From Fidelibacterota bacterium (lineage in GTDB: Bacteria; Pseudomonadota; Alphaproteobacteria; Rhodospirillales; Rhodospirillaceae), in assembly GCA_945903705.1 (NCBI GenBank), contig CAMDOZ010000008.1, positions 1 through 43,576 on the forward strand: a DNA stretch of 43,576 nt. Direction: 5' to 3'. The position numbers and the translations under genes are program-made. This document shows positions 15,942 to 22,113 of the stretch, in pieces; position 1 is the stretch's first letter; every line of letters begins with the position of its first letter. The notes beneath the pieces are model-generated. The model did not search any database, was not told the origin of the DNA, and was given only the letters and a program-made list of their open reading frames with translations.

Positions 15942-16471
15942 GAGCGCCCGCCGCCGTTCTGTTCGCGTGGTTTGCCATGGCGGGCTCCGCCTTCGCCGAT
16001 GAGGCCGAGGCCACCGACCGGTTGCTCGACTTCGTTTCCAACGGTTGCATCCAGTCGGTAATCACCGGAGCGCCGGTGAAAGATTTCGCCGCAGCGCGCC
16101 AGGCTCGGCCTGCCGATGAAAAATTTGCGGGCGCGGTGCTCGGCAAAGACAAGGGCACGGTCTATCTCAAGGACGATCCCTTGTATCCGGTGGTGCTGGC
16201 CGAACGGGCCGATGGCCCTTGCACCGTGAATGCGATGTTCCCGTCGGATCTCGCGGCGATGATCGCGGCGGTCGAGGACTTCATCGCCGGTCCGGGCGGC
16301 GGGCTCTACCCTGTGCGCACGTTCGAGGAGCAGGCGGGGTCCGGCTGGACGACGCACCGGATCTATCTCGGCCGGCGCCGCGGTAAGAACCTCACCGTTC
16401 TTTTTTCGACGACTCCGGGTGCGACGACAATCGACCAGGTCATGGTTGCGGTCGCGGAAACGAAACAGTGA
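15938..16471 (+). CDS. Secreted protein of unknown function
   Basis: The start is taken as ATG 15938, which overlaps the HAD stop and gives a signal peptide (RAPAAVLFAWFAMAGSAFA, cut before DEAEATD). An extension to 15914 lacks sense as a signal sequence. The mature protein is about 157 residues with two cysteines (NGCIQSV and GPCTVNAMF) that could form a disulfide, and ends in a beta-rich region (HRIYLGRRRGKNLTVLFS). No domain is recognised. Probably periplasmic and co-transcribed with the HAD gene. Confidence 0.72.
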   Translation: MRAPAAVLFAWFAMAGSAFADEAEATDRLLDFVSNGCIQSVITGAPVKDFAAARQARPADEKFAGAVLGKDKGTVYLKDDPLYPVVLAERADGPCTVNAMFPSDLAAMIAAVEDFIAGPGGGLYPVRTFEEQAGSGWTTHRIYLGRRRGKNLTVLFSTTPGATTIDQVMVAVAETKQ

Positions 16472-16490
16472 AGCCCTGAGCCGGCCTTAA

Positions 16491-16589
16491 TCCGCATCAC
16501 GTCCGCATCGAGGTCCGCATGAGAAAAACCGCATAAGTGTGTGAGCGGACGGGGGAATTGCGTTGTCCGCATAATCCGCATCGTCCGCA
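16491..16589. repeat. Cluster of TCCGCA direct repeats downstream of the DUF3987 gene
   Basis: TCCGCA occurs at 16491, 16502, 16514, 16566, 16575 and 16584. Spacing is 11-12 bases in the first group and 9 bases in the second, with a related ACCGCAT between them. The repeat unit in the second group is roughly TCCGCATNN. The array fills the gap between two convergent genes, 17 bases beyond the DUF3987 stop. It resembles short iterons or a protein-binding array; function unknown. Confidence 0.6.
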
Positions 16590-16605
16590 CGCCGTTTTTT
16601 CAGAC

Positions 16606-18066
16606 TCAGCATTTTTGTGTGAGTTCCCAAGACTCGCCGCCGCGCCTGCCGATATTTGTAAGGCGGACATGGCCGTCCTTCGCGAGCGTTTGCAGAAAGG
16701 CACGGGCGGCGTCGGCCGTGCGCACGAAGGAAGGACCATCGCCATAGACTTCGGACAGGGCGAACGGACCGGTTGGATGGCTGCGCTTCAACCATGTCAG
16801 GACCACCTGGGCCCGGTCGCGGGATTCAATTGCGACGGGCGGCACGCAGAGCCGCAGCGCCTCGGCCCCGTACCAGCGCGCAAGCGCTATGCCGCCGTCC
16901 GCATGGGCCTCGGCGATCTCGGGCGCATTCTCGTCGTCGTAGGCGGCGAGCAGCGCCGCGAGGCGCGCGGCCTGCTGCGGAAGTTTTGCGCCCGCCGCAC
17001 GCAAGGCGGCAAAATCACCGCCTAACGCCATGCGGGCCTCCATCTCGCCGGCGAACTGGGTCCAGCGTGCTTTCGCCGCCTTTGAGAACTCCATGATGCG
17101 CACGAGCACTTCGCCGACGTCGGCGGGCGGTCCGAGGCCGGAATGGAGGAGTGCTCCGATGCGTTCGACGAAGGCGGCGGGGCACGCCCCTCCCGCCGGT
17201 TCGCGCCAGGGGCGCCGTCCGATCCGGGACGGAGGGGCTGCGATGAGGAAGCGGGCGAGCACGCCTTCGCGGGCCAGGAGCGGATCGCCGAGGAGGACGT
17301 AGCCCTCGGCGGGCGGTACGGTGACGTGGAGCGCGAGGCGGCGACCGCCAAGCCGCTGGGCCGTCCGACCGCGGCCGACGGTGAGCGCGCCTGCATCCCA
17401 GATATCGCGCAGGAAGGCGGCCCCCGGCGCCTTCGCAAAATTCCGCAAGGGCGCCGCGGCGTCAGAACATAGGAGCAGACTCGGGCGCGCCTTGAGCTGA
17501 TCGCAGAGCAAGCCGACGGCGAGCGAAGTACTGACGAGGAAGGGAGGCGCGGGCGCAAGCGGCTTGCGCTCCAGAAACTTTTCTTCGAGCTCGGCCGCAT
17601 CGGCCTCGCCGCGAGCGCCGGAGCCACCGGACCAGGCGCGCAAGGAGGCGCGGGTCAGGCGCGCGCGATAGAGGCGCCAAGCCTGCAGGCGGGCGCGGTA
17701 GTCGAGATCGGCGAAGGGCGCGGCGCGGGCCAACTCCTCCTCGAAGCTCCGCACCGGCACGAGGGCAAGGCCGGACACGGTGCTTTTGCGCTCGCCGCTT
17801 TCGGCGACAGTGAGGAAGAAGCAGGAGACCGGGCGGATTTCGCTGGTGGGAACGCGCACCGCGACATGGTGCTGGACCGCGAGCGACACCACCGCGAGGA
17901 CAGCCTGTGCGGCCATCTCGACCGGCGCCTGGCTCGCGTCCTCGATGGCGCGCACGACGGCGCCAAGGCGCGGGCCAAGGGCGTCGATTGGGTACGCGGC
18001 GGAGCCGACGGGATAGGGAGCGGGGCCTGCTGCGAACGCGTGCAGGGGCGAGAGGCCATGGATCAT
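16606..18066 (-). CDS. DUF3987 (YfjI-like) protein
   Basis: A 486-residue protein from ATG 18066 (MIHGLSPLHAF), which has an AAGGTG ribosome site; a 25-residue extension to 18141 is unlikely. The DUF3987 pattern is clear: YPIDALGPRLGAVVRAIEDA, PVEMAAQAVLAVVSLAVQ, PVSCFFLTVAESGERKSTV (a P-loop-like S-G-x-x-K-S) and later the PPAEGYVLLGDPLLAREGVLARFLIA strand-loop. The C-terminal 70 residues look like a winged helix (FALSEVYGDG, FLQTLAKDGHVRL). Relatives occur in prophages, plasmids and islands near primase/replication genes; a DNA-related ATPase role is inferred. Flanked by a repeat array and a terminator. Confidence 0.82.
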   Translation of the reverse strand: MIHGLSPLHAFAAGPAPYPVGSAAYPIDALGPRLGAVVRAIEDASQAPVEMAAQAVLAVVSLAVQHHVAVRVPTSEIRPVSCFFLTVAESGERKSTVSGLALVPVRSFEEELARAAPFADLDYRARLQAWRLYRARLTRASLRAWSGGSGARGEADAAELEEKFLERKPLAPAPPFLVSTSLAVGLLCDQLKARPSLLLCSDAAAPLRNFAKAPGAAFLRDIWDAGALTVGRGRTAQRLGGRRLALHVTVPPAEGYVLLGDPLLAREGVLARFLIAAPPSRIGRRPWREPAGGACPAAFVERIGALLHSGLGPPADVGEVLVRIMEFSKAAKARWTQFAGEMEARMALGGDFAALRAAGAKLPQQAARLAALLAAYDDENAPEIAEAHADGGIALARWYGAEALRLCVPPVAIESRDRAQVVLTWLKRSHPTGPFALSEVYGDGPSFVRTADAARAFLQTLAKDGHVRLTNIGRRGGESWELTQKC

Positions 18067-18100
18067 GGCGCACCTTTGGAGTTGGATGTGCTGAGGGAGA

Positions 18101-18116
18101 CGGGCGCTAGCGCCCG
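18101..18116. promoter_or_regulatory. Perfect 16-bp palindrome in the DUF3987 leader
   Basis: CGGGCGCTAGCGCCCG is self-complementary over all 16 bases and lies 35 bases upstream of the DUF3987 start. It is placed where a repressor operator would sit. No flanking T tract, so not a terminator. Confidence 0.45.
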
Positions 18117-18142
18117 GGCGCGGGAGATAAAACGCGCGCAAT

Positions 18143-18166
18143 AAAAAACCGCGCTGTCGGGCGCGG
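18143..18166 (-). terminator. Intrinsic terminator closing the 18.2-20.8 kb insert
   Basis: On the minus strand CCGCGC-CCGACA-GCGCGG is followed directly by TTTTTT. It lies between the 48-codon ORF and the DUF3987 gene, so it separates the insert's transcript from DUF3987. Confidence 0.8.
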
Positions 18167-18218
18167 TTCAGACGAACGGTACGGTATATTTAGAGTGTCG
18201 CGCCGGAGGGTATTTTTT

Positions 18219-18257
18219 GTCAAGCTTCATCGCGCTTTGAAAATAGCTAAGCTTGAC
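18219..18257. repeat. 9-bp perfect inverted repeat next to the small ORF stop
   Basis: GTCAAGCTT (18219-18227) and AAGCTTGAC (18249-18257) are exact inverse copies with a 21-base spacer, ending one base before the small ORF's last codon. It is not followed by T residues on the minus strand. It may mark an edge of the inserted DNA or be a protein site. Confidence 0.45.
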
Positions 18258-18258
18258 G

Positions 18259-18405
18259 TTAGCCCTTCCATCCGAGGCGCCGGCAATAATCTTCGCCTGC
18301 CTTCTTACCCTCTCCTCGGGTCGCGTACCTTCCTGGAATATTTACCTGATCGCCTCGAAAGGTAATGCGGACAGTTTTTGAGATCTCGTCGTATTCGATG
18401 CTCAT
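18259..18405 (-). CDS. Small protein of unknown function, 48 aa
   Basis: ATG 18405 opens a 48-codon frame: SIEYDEISKTVRITFRGD, then QVNIPGRYATRGEGKK and AGEDYCRRLGWKG. It is a soluble, basic, probably beta-hairpin peptide with no recognised family. The frame extends to a TTG at 18501, but that part (RFQSGDRCQRDRAAS) lacks character. A minus-strand TATAAT at 18506-18501 could start its own transcript. Downstream of the nuclease gene in the same direction and before a terminator, so it may belong to the same unit. Confidence 0.45.
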   Translation of the reverse strand: MSIEYDEISKTVRITFRGDQVNIPGRYATRGEGKKAGEDYCRRLGWKG

Positions 18406-18548
18406 TCCTGCTTCGTAGGCCACGTTCTTTCTCCATCGCTCAATGACTTCGACGCTCGCCGCCCGGTCCCTTTGGCATCGATCGCCAGACTGAAACCTCA
18501 ATTATAAGAGTGGGAGCGAACTGAGACACGGCCCACACGCCCAGCGAA

Positions 18549-20180
18549 TCACGGGACCCTGCCGCTATGGTACCAAGTCCTATCGAGCTGTGTATCGAGC
18601 CACATTAGGACTTCGTCCCAGGCTCTGTACGGTACAATCGTTATGTAAGCTGCTATCAGCCACGCGAGCGAAGAGAAATCGTCAAGGAAGCGTCCTTGAT
18701 TTTCGTCGACCGCTTCCCGCACCAATTCGGACCACTCTTTCTTGTGATATGTGTAAGTAACTAACTTGCCTTCGGTGGAATAGGCGGCGTCAAAGAATGT
18801 TCGAGTGGGTAGCTGCGGCGTTTCATGAACGAGATGAGAGAACGACGACCATATTCCTTTGCATGTCTGCTTATAGTTGCGCTTAGCCAACATAAAAAGC
18901 ATGGGTCGAGCGAACCACGTCCGCCCCTCAAAACTGTCTTTGAAAATGCTACTGTCCCAAATAAATGGAAGGCCGTTGGTGTATGCCCAGCATTCCTCGA
19001 AATTGTAGTGGGGTGTCGGCAGTGATCGAATTTTACTCGACTTCGTGCCAGCAAAGATGATCGCCCTCAACTGACTACCAAATAAGCGGTCAAACTTAAT
19101 TGATGCCCTCGCTTGGTTGATCGCCCAGTACTTCAAGATCAAACTTGGCACCGCAGCCAATCCCCATAGTCTTGGTGCAGAGAACGTAGATTCAAGTATG
19201 CTTTCTATGTATGGGCGGCTTTCTGTCTTATGACCTGACAAAATTAGGATTGCTGCGCAATCTCCAATCAGTCGACGCCTCTCCCACATAATATCTCGTT
19301 CAGAAAGGGGGTCTCGCTCTGCCCAAACGTAGTCGGGTTCAAAACTTCGTTCCTTCGCTTCAGTGAGCAAGTCTGCACAGTGTTCAATCGCTAGCGCGCA
19401 ATACCTCTCGAGAGTTGCGTAACGATCCGGATCATCTGCAAGGGGCAACGCGTAGACTGATACTAAAGTCGTAATACTGAAGAGCGCGTAGTGATTTTTT
19501 GTTGCATACCATGGCGCTTTTATTATCTCGGCCAATAGCAATAACGATGACAAATGTGCCGACTTTGCGGCGCTCGACAGCTTCTTGCCTACTCTTGCAT
19601 TCGCAATCAGCACTCGTGCAATGATTCTAGGATCAGGGGTGAGTCGTCCATCTTCCGCGAATAAATTCAAGATCGCGCGCGCGCCATCAAGAGAAGCCGG
19701 CCATATAGTGCCCGAATGCTTGCGCAAAAGCGCAAGAAGCTCACCCCGCGTCCAAAGTTCGTACTTCCGAGCGGGGCATGTGGACTTCTTAACGCGCGCG
19801 CCTGCCCCTTCAAAGACCAGGCGCGCTTCTTCGTCTATATCCCCGTTAGTAACGAAAACAGCGACATGTCGCTCTGATGGCGTCGAGCGAAACGTTGACG
19901 AAGGAGAAATTTCCAGCAGCTCAATGAACTGATCTAGGAGACTTTGTGCTTCGCTTTTTGTCACCCGACTTCCGGGATTGCCCTTTAGCTGAAAGCAATG
20001 CAGCACGCCTCTTGAGTTGCGCGCTATTACATCCTTTCCGAGTTCGATGGGTGAGTGACGGGTGTTATGGAGGACCGTCCATCCTTCGGAGACCAGTAAC
20101 TGAATAAACGCCGCCTGATAGAGTCGCTCAGACTGGCTATCCAACCAGCTTTCGATCAGCCTCTCGAAGGTTGAACTCAT
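18549..20180 (-). CDS. PD-(D/E)XK nuclease-like protein with large uncharacterised C-terminal region
   Basis: A 543-residue protein. Residues 1-110 read as an Mrr/restriction-endonuclease-type fold: helix with Glu18 (SQSERLYQAAFIQLLVSEGW), then Asp50 in ELGKDVIARN and Gln64-x-Lys66 in CFQLKGN, the catalytic D...(E/Q)xK layout. Residues about 110-155 finish an alpha/beta unit (HVAVFVTNGDIDEEARLVFEG). Residues 160-543 are mostly helical, rich in Trp/Tyr, and match nothing recognised. ATG 20180 lies 44 bases inside the upstream gene, implying translational coupling. Codon use is clearly AT-richer than neighbours, a sign of transfer. A defence nuclease is the leading guess; no methylase is present. 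Confidence 0.75.
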   Translation of the reverse strand: MSSTFERLIESWLDSQSERLYQAAFIQLLVSEGWTVLHNTRHSPIELGKDVIARNSRGVLHCFQLKGNPGSRVTKSEAQSLLDQFIELLEISPSSTFRSTPSERHVAVFVTNGDIDEEARLVFEGAGARVKKSTCPARKYELWTRGELLALLRKHSGTIWPASLDGARAILNLFAEDGRLTPDPRIIARVLIANARVGKKLSSAAKSAHLSSLLLLAEIIKAPWYATKNHYALFSITTLVSVYALPLADDPDRYATLERYCALAIEHCADLLTEAKERSFEPDYVWAERDPLSERDIMWERRRLIGDCAAILILSGHKTESRPYIESILESTFSAPRLWGLAAVPSLILKYWAINQARASIKFDRLFGSQLRAIIFAGTKSSKIRSLPTPHYNFEECWAYTNGLPFIWDSSIFKDSFEGRTWFARPMLFMLAKRNYKQTCKGIWSSFSHLVHETPQLPTRTFFDAAYSTEGKLVTYTYHKKEWSELVREAVDENQGRFLDDFSSLAWLIAAYITIVPYRAWDEVLMWLDTQLDRTWYHSGRVP

Positions 20181-20721
20181 CGCGCTTTTTCTGGAGGATT
20201 TTTTCTAGCTTTTTCTTGAAATCTTCGGAAGGAACTTTGCCAGCGATTTGGTCAAACAGCTTTTGGCCAGTTAATAAGACCTGAGGCTGCCAATTACCTT
20301 CCCCGTCAAACGTATGATCCAACTTGTTATACATTTCGAGCAGCATGTTTTCATCAAAAGGCTTTCCACCGGCATCGAGCTTGTTACCGGCAGCAGATAT
20401 ATCTTTGTCTAACGTCTTATAGGCGACACCACTAAAACCGCGCGCAAACTGTTCTGCAATGTGGTCGATACAGTTGGCGTAGTGAGCGTTATCGTAGTCC
20501 TTTAGTTTCAGCGCCTCGAACTTTATATCGGCCGTTACAGGGCTAAGTGGATACCTACCAATACTGTCGTCGTGCCGCAGGATCGTTGACTGATTTCCCT
20601 CGAATTGGACGTGAGTTTTAACCATACCAAGTAGCGGGGACTTGCTCTTAGCAAGCTGCTGCACGGCATCGTTCAGCATTTGCCGGCTTATTTCTTCTAT
20701 CTTTGGACTTGTTGGCAGCAT
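20137..20721 (-). CDS. Unknown protein, partner gene of the PD-(D/E)XK protein
   Basis: A 194-residue protein from ATG 20721 (LPTSPKIEEISRQMLNDAV); a TTG at 20760 would add 13 residues. It has an alpha/beta middle (MVKTHVQFEGNQSTIL, PVTADIKFEALKLKDYDN), a central helical part (CIDHIAEQFARGFSGV) and a very basic C-terminal helix (EDFKKKLEKILQKKRDEFNL, then READRKLVG). No family recognised, no transmembrane or signal segment. It overlaps the nuclease gene by 44 bases, so the two products are probably made together. The sequence is AT-richer than the flanks. No promoter is evident in the 75 bases to the DUF2336 gene, so it may be read through from it. Confidence 0.7.
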   Translation of the reverse strand: MLPTSPKIEEISRQMLNDAVQQLAKSKSPLLGMVKTHVQFEGNQSTILRHDDSIGRYPLSPVTADIKFEALKLKDYDNAHYANCIDHIAEQFARGFSGVAYKTLDKDISAAGNKLDAGGKPFDENMLLEMYNKLDHTFDGEGNWQPQVLLTGQKLFDQIAGKVPSEDFKKKLEKILQKKRDEFNLREADRKLVG

Positions 20722-20796
20722 TCGTATTTCGTTGTAGCGCAATATTCCTCTGGCGCCCAACTTTTGTGACTGGGCGTCATCGAAGGGAACGAGCCG

Positions 20797-22113
20797 TCAC
20801 TTCCCCGCCATGTCCTGGAACATATCCAGCTGCCATTCGAGCTCGGACTCGGTGGCGTCGAAGCCGCCGCCGGCGCGGGGACGGATCAGGGCTTCGGGTG
20901 TCACGCGCGCCACTTTCAGCTGAAGCTGGGCGGCTTCCTCGGCGGTGAAATCGCCGGCCCAGCCGACGGCGAGCATGCCTTTGGCGGAGGCCGTGCGCAC
21001 GACTTCGGCGACGGCGGCGAGCGGCAAGTCGGAGAGATGGGCGAGCGAGGCGACGACCATGGGTGTCGCGCCGTCGTTGGCCATCTTCATGACCGCGCGG
21101 GTGGTGATCTTGCCGGCGCGCGCGAGGGCTTCGACCTGGCGCGCGGCCATCTTCAGGGAGTCGGGGGCCAGCGCGTCGGCGGGATCGTCCTGGACGAGGC
21201 CGCCCTTCTCGTCGTCCTTGCGGAGCTTGTCCTGCACCATCTTGCCCAGCGACAGGATGGTGTCGGGGTCGAGGTCGGACCGGCGGGCGAGTTCCTGCAC
21301 GAGGGACGCCGCGACGAATTCGGCGATGCGCAGCGCCGCCTTGGAATTGAGGTTGGGGCGATGCACCAGGGGCTCGTGCCACCAGACCTGACGGGGCGCG
21401 GCGTCGATGATGGCGTCGAGGGTCTCTTCCCTGATCTGCGCGCTTTTGTTCTTGAGGAGCGAGGTGATGGCGTCGACGTTGCCGGTGCCGACGATGGCGT
21501 TGGAGACTTCCTCGCCCACGTTGAGGCGCCGGGAGATGGCGACGAGCTGGGCGGTGAGCGGTGACGCTTGAATGACCGCCTGGAGATCCTCGTCCGTCAG
21601 CACCGGCGAGAATTCGAGGACCGGCGTCGCGACGGTCGCCTCGGTATCGGTGGCCAAGGTGAAGACCACGTCGTGGGGCGCGTTCGGCACCGACTTCAGG
21701 GCTTCCGAGAGCGCCCGGCGGACGCGCGGCAACTGATCGCGCGCGAGAAGGATGAGCACCTGGTGGATGGTGCGCCAGGCTTTTTCGTGTTCGTCGACGG
21801 CGAGGCCGGGAAGCACACGGCCCAAGCGGTCGGCGAGGTCGGAGCGCACGTCGGCGTCATCGTCCGCGGCGAGGAGGAGTGCTGCTTTCGCGGGCGCGGT
21901 TTCGTTGACCGCGATGGAGCGGCGCACGACGGTATCGGTGTCGCGGGCGAGGAAGAACAGGATCTCGGGCTCGAGGTCGGCGCGTTCGGCGAGCGCCCGA
22001 CGCACTTCCACTTCGGGATGGTCGAGAAGATCGCGCGCCTGTTCGTACGTGACCTTCTGCCCGGGCAAGCCGAGCAGATGCTTCAGACGGTCTTTCGCGG
22101 GGACGCCGGACAT
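20797..22113 (-). CDS. DUF2336 HEAT-repeat-like protein
   Basis: A 438-residue, largely helical protein. The first 160 residues contain HEAT-like units (DLLDHPEVEVRRALAERADL, DTDTVVRRSIAVNETAP, DDADVRSDLADRLG, DQLPRVRRALSEAL). The rest, including SPLTAQLVAISRRLNVGEEV and RRSDLDPDTILSLGKMVQ, follows the DUF2336 pattern common in Alphaproteobacteria. Function unknown; a protein-binding scaffold is inferred. Its ATG shares a base with the TGA of the upstream GGDEF gene, so it is coupled to a c-di-GMP enzyme. Confidence 0.82.
   Translation of the reverse strand: MSGVPAKDRLKHLLGLPGQKVTYEQARDLLDHPEVEVRRALAERADLEPEILFFLARDTDTVVRRSIAVNETAPAKAALLLAADDDADVRSDLADRLGRVLPGLAVDEHEKAWRTIHQVLILLARDQLPRVRRALSEALKSVPNAPHDVVFTLATDTEATVATPVLEFSPVLTDEDLQAVIQASPLTAQLVAISRRLNVGEEVSNAIVGTGNVDAITSLLKNKSAQIREETLDAIIDAAPRQVWWHEPLVHRPNLNSKAALRIAEFVAASLVQELARRSDLDPDTILSLGKMVQDKLRKDDEKGGLVQDDPADALAPDSLKMAARQVEALARAGKITTRAVMKMANDGATPMVVASLAHLSDLPLAAVAEVVRTASAKGMLAVGWAGDFTAEEAAQLQLKVARVTPEALIRPRAGGGFDATESELEWQLDMFQDMAGK

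Follow-up and report, generated by a model that had tools for sequence, protein, structure and literature searches.

Two overlapping genes in an AT-rich block of an alphaproteobacterial contig probably constitute a horizontally acquired anti-phage (or anti-plasmid) module with a predicted nuclease, related to Olokun but more compact and so far without a name. The window (the whole stretch of DNA analyzed, 43,576 nucleotides of contig CAMDOZ010000008.1) holds one representative of a conserved two-gene unit whose overlap is fixed, and, judging from sequence comparison, the larger protein of this unit contains a PD-(D/E)XK domain of the Mrr/OloB type.

Organization and composition of the block

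The two genes lie on the minus strand between a DUF2336 gene (20797–22113) and a DUF3987 gene (16606–18141), and both flanking families were confirmed (1.5e-41 and 4.1e-58, respectively). The features of the block and its borders are as follows.

20137–20721, minus strand: small partner protein, 194 aa from ATG, with a basic C-terminal helix; its last codons overlap the nuclease gene
18549–20180, minus strand: predicted nuclease, 543 aa, with an OloB-related, Mrr-type PD-(D/E)XK N-terminal domain (E18, D50, Q64-x-K66)
C-terminal region of the nuclease, about 380 aa: helical in a low-confidence model, outside any assigned family
20137–20180, minus strand: overlap of the partner and nuclease genes, 44 nt
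18225–20796, no strand: AT-rich block, 2.6 kb, without counterpart in the same-genus locus L027 (genome G012)
18259–18405, minus strand: 48-codon ORF downstream of the nuclease, 80 aa if TTG at 18501 is the start
18146–18169, minus strand: terminator-like hairpin, in flanking DNA common with L027

The initial annotation described two genes of 194 and 543 aa overlapping by 44 nt in a block of deviating base and codon use, all of which is borne out. An alternative TTG start at 20760 would extend the partner to 207 aa. The GC content is 50.0% in 18225–20796 versus 64.1% in the rest of the window; 360 stretches of the same size taken outside the block vary between 60.9 and 68.2%. GC3 is 0.52–0.53 in both genes versus 0.82–0.88 in four other window genes. 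Two further elements that had been counted as parts of the module do not belong with it as far as can be judged: the 48-codon ORF found no convincing match among the loci collected at that stage (best E 2.5) and probably lies outside the module, while the hairpin lies outside the block because its flank is common with L027, a locus without the pair. The block contains no third long gene, and visual inspection of the other loci showed no methylase gene next to the pair, in keeping with the earlier statement that this is not an ordinary restriction-modification set.

The window segment 18178–18224, approximately 47 bp upstream of the DUF3987 gene, is nearly identical in G012, and its far end, at the block edge, reads TTGACA on the minus strand; perhaps it is the promoter of the DUF3987 gene.

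Occupancy of the site across the genus

A search of 18 other same-genus genomes (completeness 71–100%, so some are incomplete) gave no match to the nuclease, and among 41 relatives overall the window's own genome was the only one with it. The DUF2336 gene has matches in all 19 genomes of the genus, with only a distant paralogue in G005. The site itself was compared in 12 of the 18 same-genus genomes, and the block proved absent there: the 12 regions are empty or otherwise filled, and none contains the pair. At ten of them, only 47–875 nt separate the end of the match to the HAD-type gene (a name given by eye) from the end of the DUF2336 match, and therefore both the DUF3987 gene and the pair are missing. 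The G002 site holds TonB-receptor-like and AsnC-like ORFs (by eye), and the G012 site holds TonB-receptor-like and AsnC-like ORFs, the DUF3987 gene, and an 86-aa ORF. G012 is the only compared relative with both neighbors; its match to the window breaks at 18224 and restarts at 20799, and 448 bp including the 86-aa ORF replace the block. The block is foreign DNA, probably acquired horizontally, and the pair occupies different sites in different genomes.

The larger interval from the HAD-type gene to the DUF2336 gene (window 15942–20796, names assigned by eye) is variable across the genus; it occurs nearly empty, with TonB-receptor-like and AsnC-like ORFs, or with the DUF3987 gene and other cargo.

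Homologous loci and conservation of the pair

Including the window, seven distinct loci from two phyla were collected; the other six are listed here.

Caulobacter sp. MAG (G296, locus L004): 56% identity, overlapping pair
Brevundimonas variabilis (L005): 55% identity, overlapping pair
G471: 44% identity, overlapping pair
G560: 28% identity, overlapping pair
G954: 28% identity, overlapping pair
Rhodococcus qingshengii plasmid (L045): 20% identity, annotated as 'restriction endonuclease' and 'hypothetical protein'

The family is sparse. Nuclease searches matched 2 of 398 genomes of the phylum (own genome included; the same set was also searched with a profile), 2 of 249 genomes of the order of G296 (query genome included), and, among 385 genomes of the class (own/query genome included), three strongly and one weakly; the last, in G068 (E 0.0066, spanning about 60 aa), was dropped. 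A contig scan with two short peptide patterns yielded at least two loci. The window nuclease had no match in phages or plasmids, four scans of viral contigs found no nuclease relative, and neither the G954 partner searched against phages nor the window partner searched against plasmids gave anything below E 5.

That the two genes recur as a unit is confirmed in all seven loci, in each of which the partner lies directly upstream of the nuclease. The overlaps measure 44 nt in four loci and 35 nt in three, the frame relation is constant, and the partner stop codon falls at or near one place of the nuclease alignment across loci; the Rhodococcus partner, only 20% identical, was recognized from its position and length. 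No lone partner was found in the 385 class genomes, where the three strong partner-profile matches all adjoin a nuclease; only the absence of lone copies is informative in this result, because those three sequences had gone into the profile. Between the Caulobacter and Brevundimonas copies, dN/dS is 0.078 for the nuclease and 0.215 for the partner, and where this is measurable both genes are under purifying selection.

Three weak matches were considered as lone partners and rejected: those in G747 and G621 are ORFs that we take to be HflC-like, and that in G550 lies in a frame with three stops. A frameshift fusion of the two proteins through the overlap was also discarded, as the nuclease frame is +1 to that of the partner and no slippery run common to the seven loci was seen by eye.

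The nuclease domain and its relationship to OloB

Neither window protein had a convincing match in Pfam, PADLOC, NCBIfam, or PHROGs (the best values for the partner in family-library scans were 0.059 and 0.31), nor in a sequence search of the PDB (best 0.61), and none of the seven partners matched in a PADLOC scan. AlphaFold predictions, made with three sequences each, were poor, with pLDDT values of 42 and 39, the latter for the nuclease model. When the nuclease profile was searched against the PDB, only WD-40 propeller chains came out on top (1.3e-4, 34 positions); no single stretch passes alone, and we attribute the match to chance.

Alignment of the homologues strengthens the original PD-(D/E)XK assignment. 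The putative catalytic residues E18 and D50 are invariant in all seven, and Q64-x-K66 is in register in six; in Rhodococcus, a QSK occurs three residues later (by eye). Pfam Mrr_cat (PF04471) is matched by one of the seven nucleases (1e-4) and is the sole Pfam family below E 0.1 for any member. The PADLOC model for OloB, of the Olokun system (OloA plus OloB) reportedly described by Millman et al. in 2022, finds one of the seven, weakly (7.3e-4), with G954 at 0.003; it gives no hit to the window nuclease and none in G000. The true OloB of G296, a genome that also has a full Olokun pair approximately 50 kb from the module, scores 4.9e-187.

Profile comparisons were made against OloB alignments of 9 and then 15 sequences and OloA alignments of 8 and then 14. 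These drew on six of seven viral OloB loci (L080 was omitted as a copy of L076) and 8 of 34 plasmid OloB records; four of nine Mrr_cat loci served as a control. Nuclease residues 1–160 aligned to OloB 1–165 with a score of 71.2 and an E-value of 2.8e-11, a result that none of 60 shuffles equaled (maximum 21.4). Across alignments, hhalign E-values for the OloB N-terminal domain ranged from 5.4e-9 to 2.8e-11, including one of 7.2e-11 with 0 of 100 shuffles as good. The profile of four Mrr_cat domains scored 29.4 (profile-profile E 4e-4). With single sequences, one OloB scored 42.4 and the four Mrr domains 13.7–21.0, and proteins from the surrounding islands scored 19.6 (DUF4365), 13.1 (281-aa protein), and 13.8 (AbiJ). 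Profile comparison thus establishes the predicted N-terminal domain as a specific relative of that in OloB of Olokun. The C-terminal domain of OloB scored 18.2 against the C-terminal region of the nuclease, with 12 of 100 shuffles as good.

Klebsiella accounts for 19 of the 34 plasmid records in which an OloB relative occurs. In a Tolypothrix plasmid (L063, 1308–4240), ISAs1 transposase genes are found near an OloB relative, at the place expected for OloA.

The partner protein

Residues 19–85 (approximately) of the partner align with the last 75 or so residues of OloA at a score of 23.0 (hhalign probability 8%, E 0.0046), in the register that had been spotted by eye earlier. None of 150 shuffles was as good (maximum 18.0), and alignment to 17 other OloA or OloB segments gave 8.5–15.6. 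A five-partner profile against more OloA sequences scored 19.9 versus a maximum of 19.6 in 150 shuffles; with five partners and a smaller OloA set, the score was equaled by 4 of 200 shuffles. The match is weak, and we consider a relationship between the N-terminal half of the partner and the OloA tail likely but unproven.

A second signal lies on a partly different region (82–167, versus 19–85 for the OloA tail). In a PDB search, the partner profile built from seven sequences retrieved an HK97-type capsid protein of a halovirus at E 0.041; with five sequences the capsid protein was absent up to E 5, and PHROGs gave no capsid match for the partner. A profile of capsid proteins from four haloviruses scored 33.4 at partner residues 82–167 (25.6 with five partners), with 0 of 100 shuffles as good in each case, although these later shuffles do not correct for choice because the haloviral capsid was picked from 177,635 sequences. 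Seventeen PF05065 capsids scored 21.6 (equaled by 1 of 100 shuffles) and 23.2 (equaled by 3 of 100); the highest score of any real profile that was unrelated or reversed was 16.9, and the OloA tail did not match capsids. The PF05065 test has little power because the haloviral family itself scores 25.5 against PF05065, compared with 21.6 for the partner. The partner thus matches haloviral HK97-type major capsid proteins weakly and those of PF05065 more weakly, and it is about half as long as such proteins.

Comparison with Olokun and Mrr-type nucleases

The pair resembles Olokun in consisting of two genes with an upstream, overlapping partner, in its predicted OloB-type PD-(D/E)XK N-terminal domain, in nuclease length (543 aa versus 559–595 aa in the 15 OloB used), in its presence on plasmids and in defense surroundings, and possibly in the OloA tail-like segment of the partner. 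It differs in its partner of 194 aa, versus approximately 570 aa for OloA, which has no match to OloA 1–455; in a nuclease C-terminal region that is not alignable to OloB; and in an overlap of 35–44 nt, whereas in Olokun it is mostly 4 nt (1–17 among those read). The site also differs: QxK is canonical here, whereas in all nine aligned OloB the Q/E of the (E/Q)-x-K motif is replaced by S, T, L, or I. D47 and K67 are invariant in the same nine, and the active site of OloB may thus differ from the canonical PD-(D/E)XK site. Because the OloA body and the OloB C-terminal domain are unmatched and the PADLOC OloB model misses the window protein, the pair is not Olokun itself. The initial annotation had proposed a candidate new defense or mobile-DNA system; a wholly new system is not supported, given an N-terminal domain specifically related to that of OloB and a partner that may be related to the OloA tail, and we read the pair as a compact, previously unnamed relative.

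A compact Olokun locus, L064, is similar in combining a smaller partner (300 aa) with a 559-aa nuclease, at an overlap of 4 nt. However, PADLOC identifies it as Olokun (OloA 1.8e-18, model positions 313–589; OloB 4.8e-81, nearly the whole model), and its partner lacks the C-terminal half of the window-type partner. Such compact Olokun is found on Enterobacteriaceae plasmids; L064 itself is on a Klebsiella michiganensis plasmid (CP146540.1, 2096–4674), near ParA and ParG genes.

Restriction endonucleases of the Mrr_cat type (PF04471) share the D...QxK site, with its order kept, but they have a different C-terminal region, the pair here includes a partner gene, and they are more distant than OloB.

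In published passages, Olokun is termed 'largely uncharacterized' (PMC12926258), is described in 2025 as not thoroughly characterized (PMC12592470), and is listed under nuclease activity (PMC10855318); the passages on it in these three papers and in PMC12629846 and PMC10121019 give no mechanism. Among the papers searched, none contains two of 'OloA', 'OloB', and 'Olokun' as whole words.

Genomic surroundings

Defense-rich surroundings are present in three of the seven loci (Caulobacter, Brevundimonas, and Rhodococcus). The flanks of the window, G471, G560, and G954 pairs contain no recognized defense gene (ORFs read by eye), and PADLOC gives no hit for the DUF2336 and DUF3987 neighbors in the window.

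In Caulobacter, the pair is located between ParB and ArdC/relaxase genes. Before it come a PD-T7-1 homologue (4.2e-151), a 504-aa ORF that matches nothing in Pfam or PADLOC, and an MNT-HEPN protein. DUF4365 and AbiJ_NTD3 genes come after it, and an HEPN_LA2681 gene is also in the locus. The Brevundimonas order is a PD-T7-1 homologue (5.6e-151), MNT-HEPN, the pair, and then a PDC-S39 gene on the other strand (1e-86). Downstream of the Rhodococcus pair come a 281-aa ORF with no PADLOC hit and then a helicase gene (PDC-M23B 7.1e-60, HamB 3.8e-55); upstream of it are genes annotated as an AAA ATPase, an exonuclease domain protein (PDC-S48 2.6e-32), and an ATP-dependent endonuclease.

A PD-T7-1 homologue and an MNT-HEPN fusion thus lie upstream of the pair in two genera (L003, 6490–10414; L005, 5109–7460), with the 504-aa ORF as an extra gene between them in L003. 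PD-T7-1 was reportedly described by Vassallo et al. in 2022. This arrangement is possibly a larger unit in Caulobacterales.

Proposed function and alternatives

As an anti-phage or anti-plasmid module, the pair would be produced by coupled translation, after which partner and nuclease would form a complex. The partner, with its OloA-tail-like N-terminal half and its own C-terminal half, and the C-terminal region of the nuclease would together sense an infection cue and would keep the nuclease inactive until that cue arrives; on release, the predicted E-D-QxK site would cut phage or cell DNA. As the block has no modification enzyme, self-protection would be via control by the partner or via recognition of a feature of foreign DNA. 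The fixed ratio of the two proteins and the effector-regulator pairing that the initial annotation drew from the overlap are putative.

The same tight, conserved coupling, with the partner gene first, could also be that of a toxin-antitoxin-like abortive system, in which the nuclease would harm the cell that produces it and the partner would be a labile antitoxin, with infection freeing the nuclease. Here the target would be host DNA and the partner an inhibitor only. A block without methylase, the recent gain of the pair, and the defense surroundings in three of seven loci are consistent with such a system, but no antitoxin or DNA-binding family matches the partner at E < 0.04 in any library scan, and most toxins are small, unlike this 543-aa nuclease. 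We therefore regard it as possible but doubtful.

Somewhat less credible, and in our judgment unlikely, is modification-dependent (type IV-like) restriction, in which an Mrr-like nuclease would cut foreign modified DNA recognized by its C-terminal region or by the partner; host DNA, being without the modification, would make an inhibitor unnecessary. The Mrr_cat match of one member, the QxK site, and again the lack of a methylase point in this direction. However, OloB rather than Mrr is nearest by a wide margin in both profile and single-sequence scores, and Mrr is not known to include an obligatory overlapping partner.

The position of the Caulobacter pair between ParB and ArdC/relaxase genes, similar ORFs in Brevundimonas (by eye), and the one copy on a mobilizable plasmid suggest a non-defense alternative, namely that the nuclease serves a mobile element in transfer, in competition between elements, or in its own mobility. 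This we consider improbable: the G471, G560, and G954 pairs have ordinary chromosomal neighbors, none of them evidently a mobility gene (ORFs read by eye), and a comparison of the ends of the window block found only an 8-bp match.

Finally, and also improbably, the partner might be a small capsid-like protein with the HK97 fold, or an OloA-tail segment fused to a capsid-type spine helix and A-domain, that couples an OloB-type nuclease to phage capsid assembly, a reading not adopted here as PHROGs and the five-sequence PDB search gave it no support; were it true, the partner would co-assemble with or imitate a phage capsid protein, the nuclease being released or aimed when capsids form, or else the partner would form a shell around the nuclease.

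Implications

These loci add a sparse, mobile family spanning two phyla next to Olokun. If the interpretation of the pair as a compact relative of Olokun is correct, an OloB-type nuclease and a 194-aa partner can suffice as a working unit, one that dispenses with the large OloA body and retains a canonical E-D-QxK site. As this would be a small unit of two proteins, the role of the OloA tail and the triggering of the nuclease would become testable on it.
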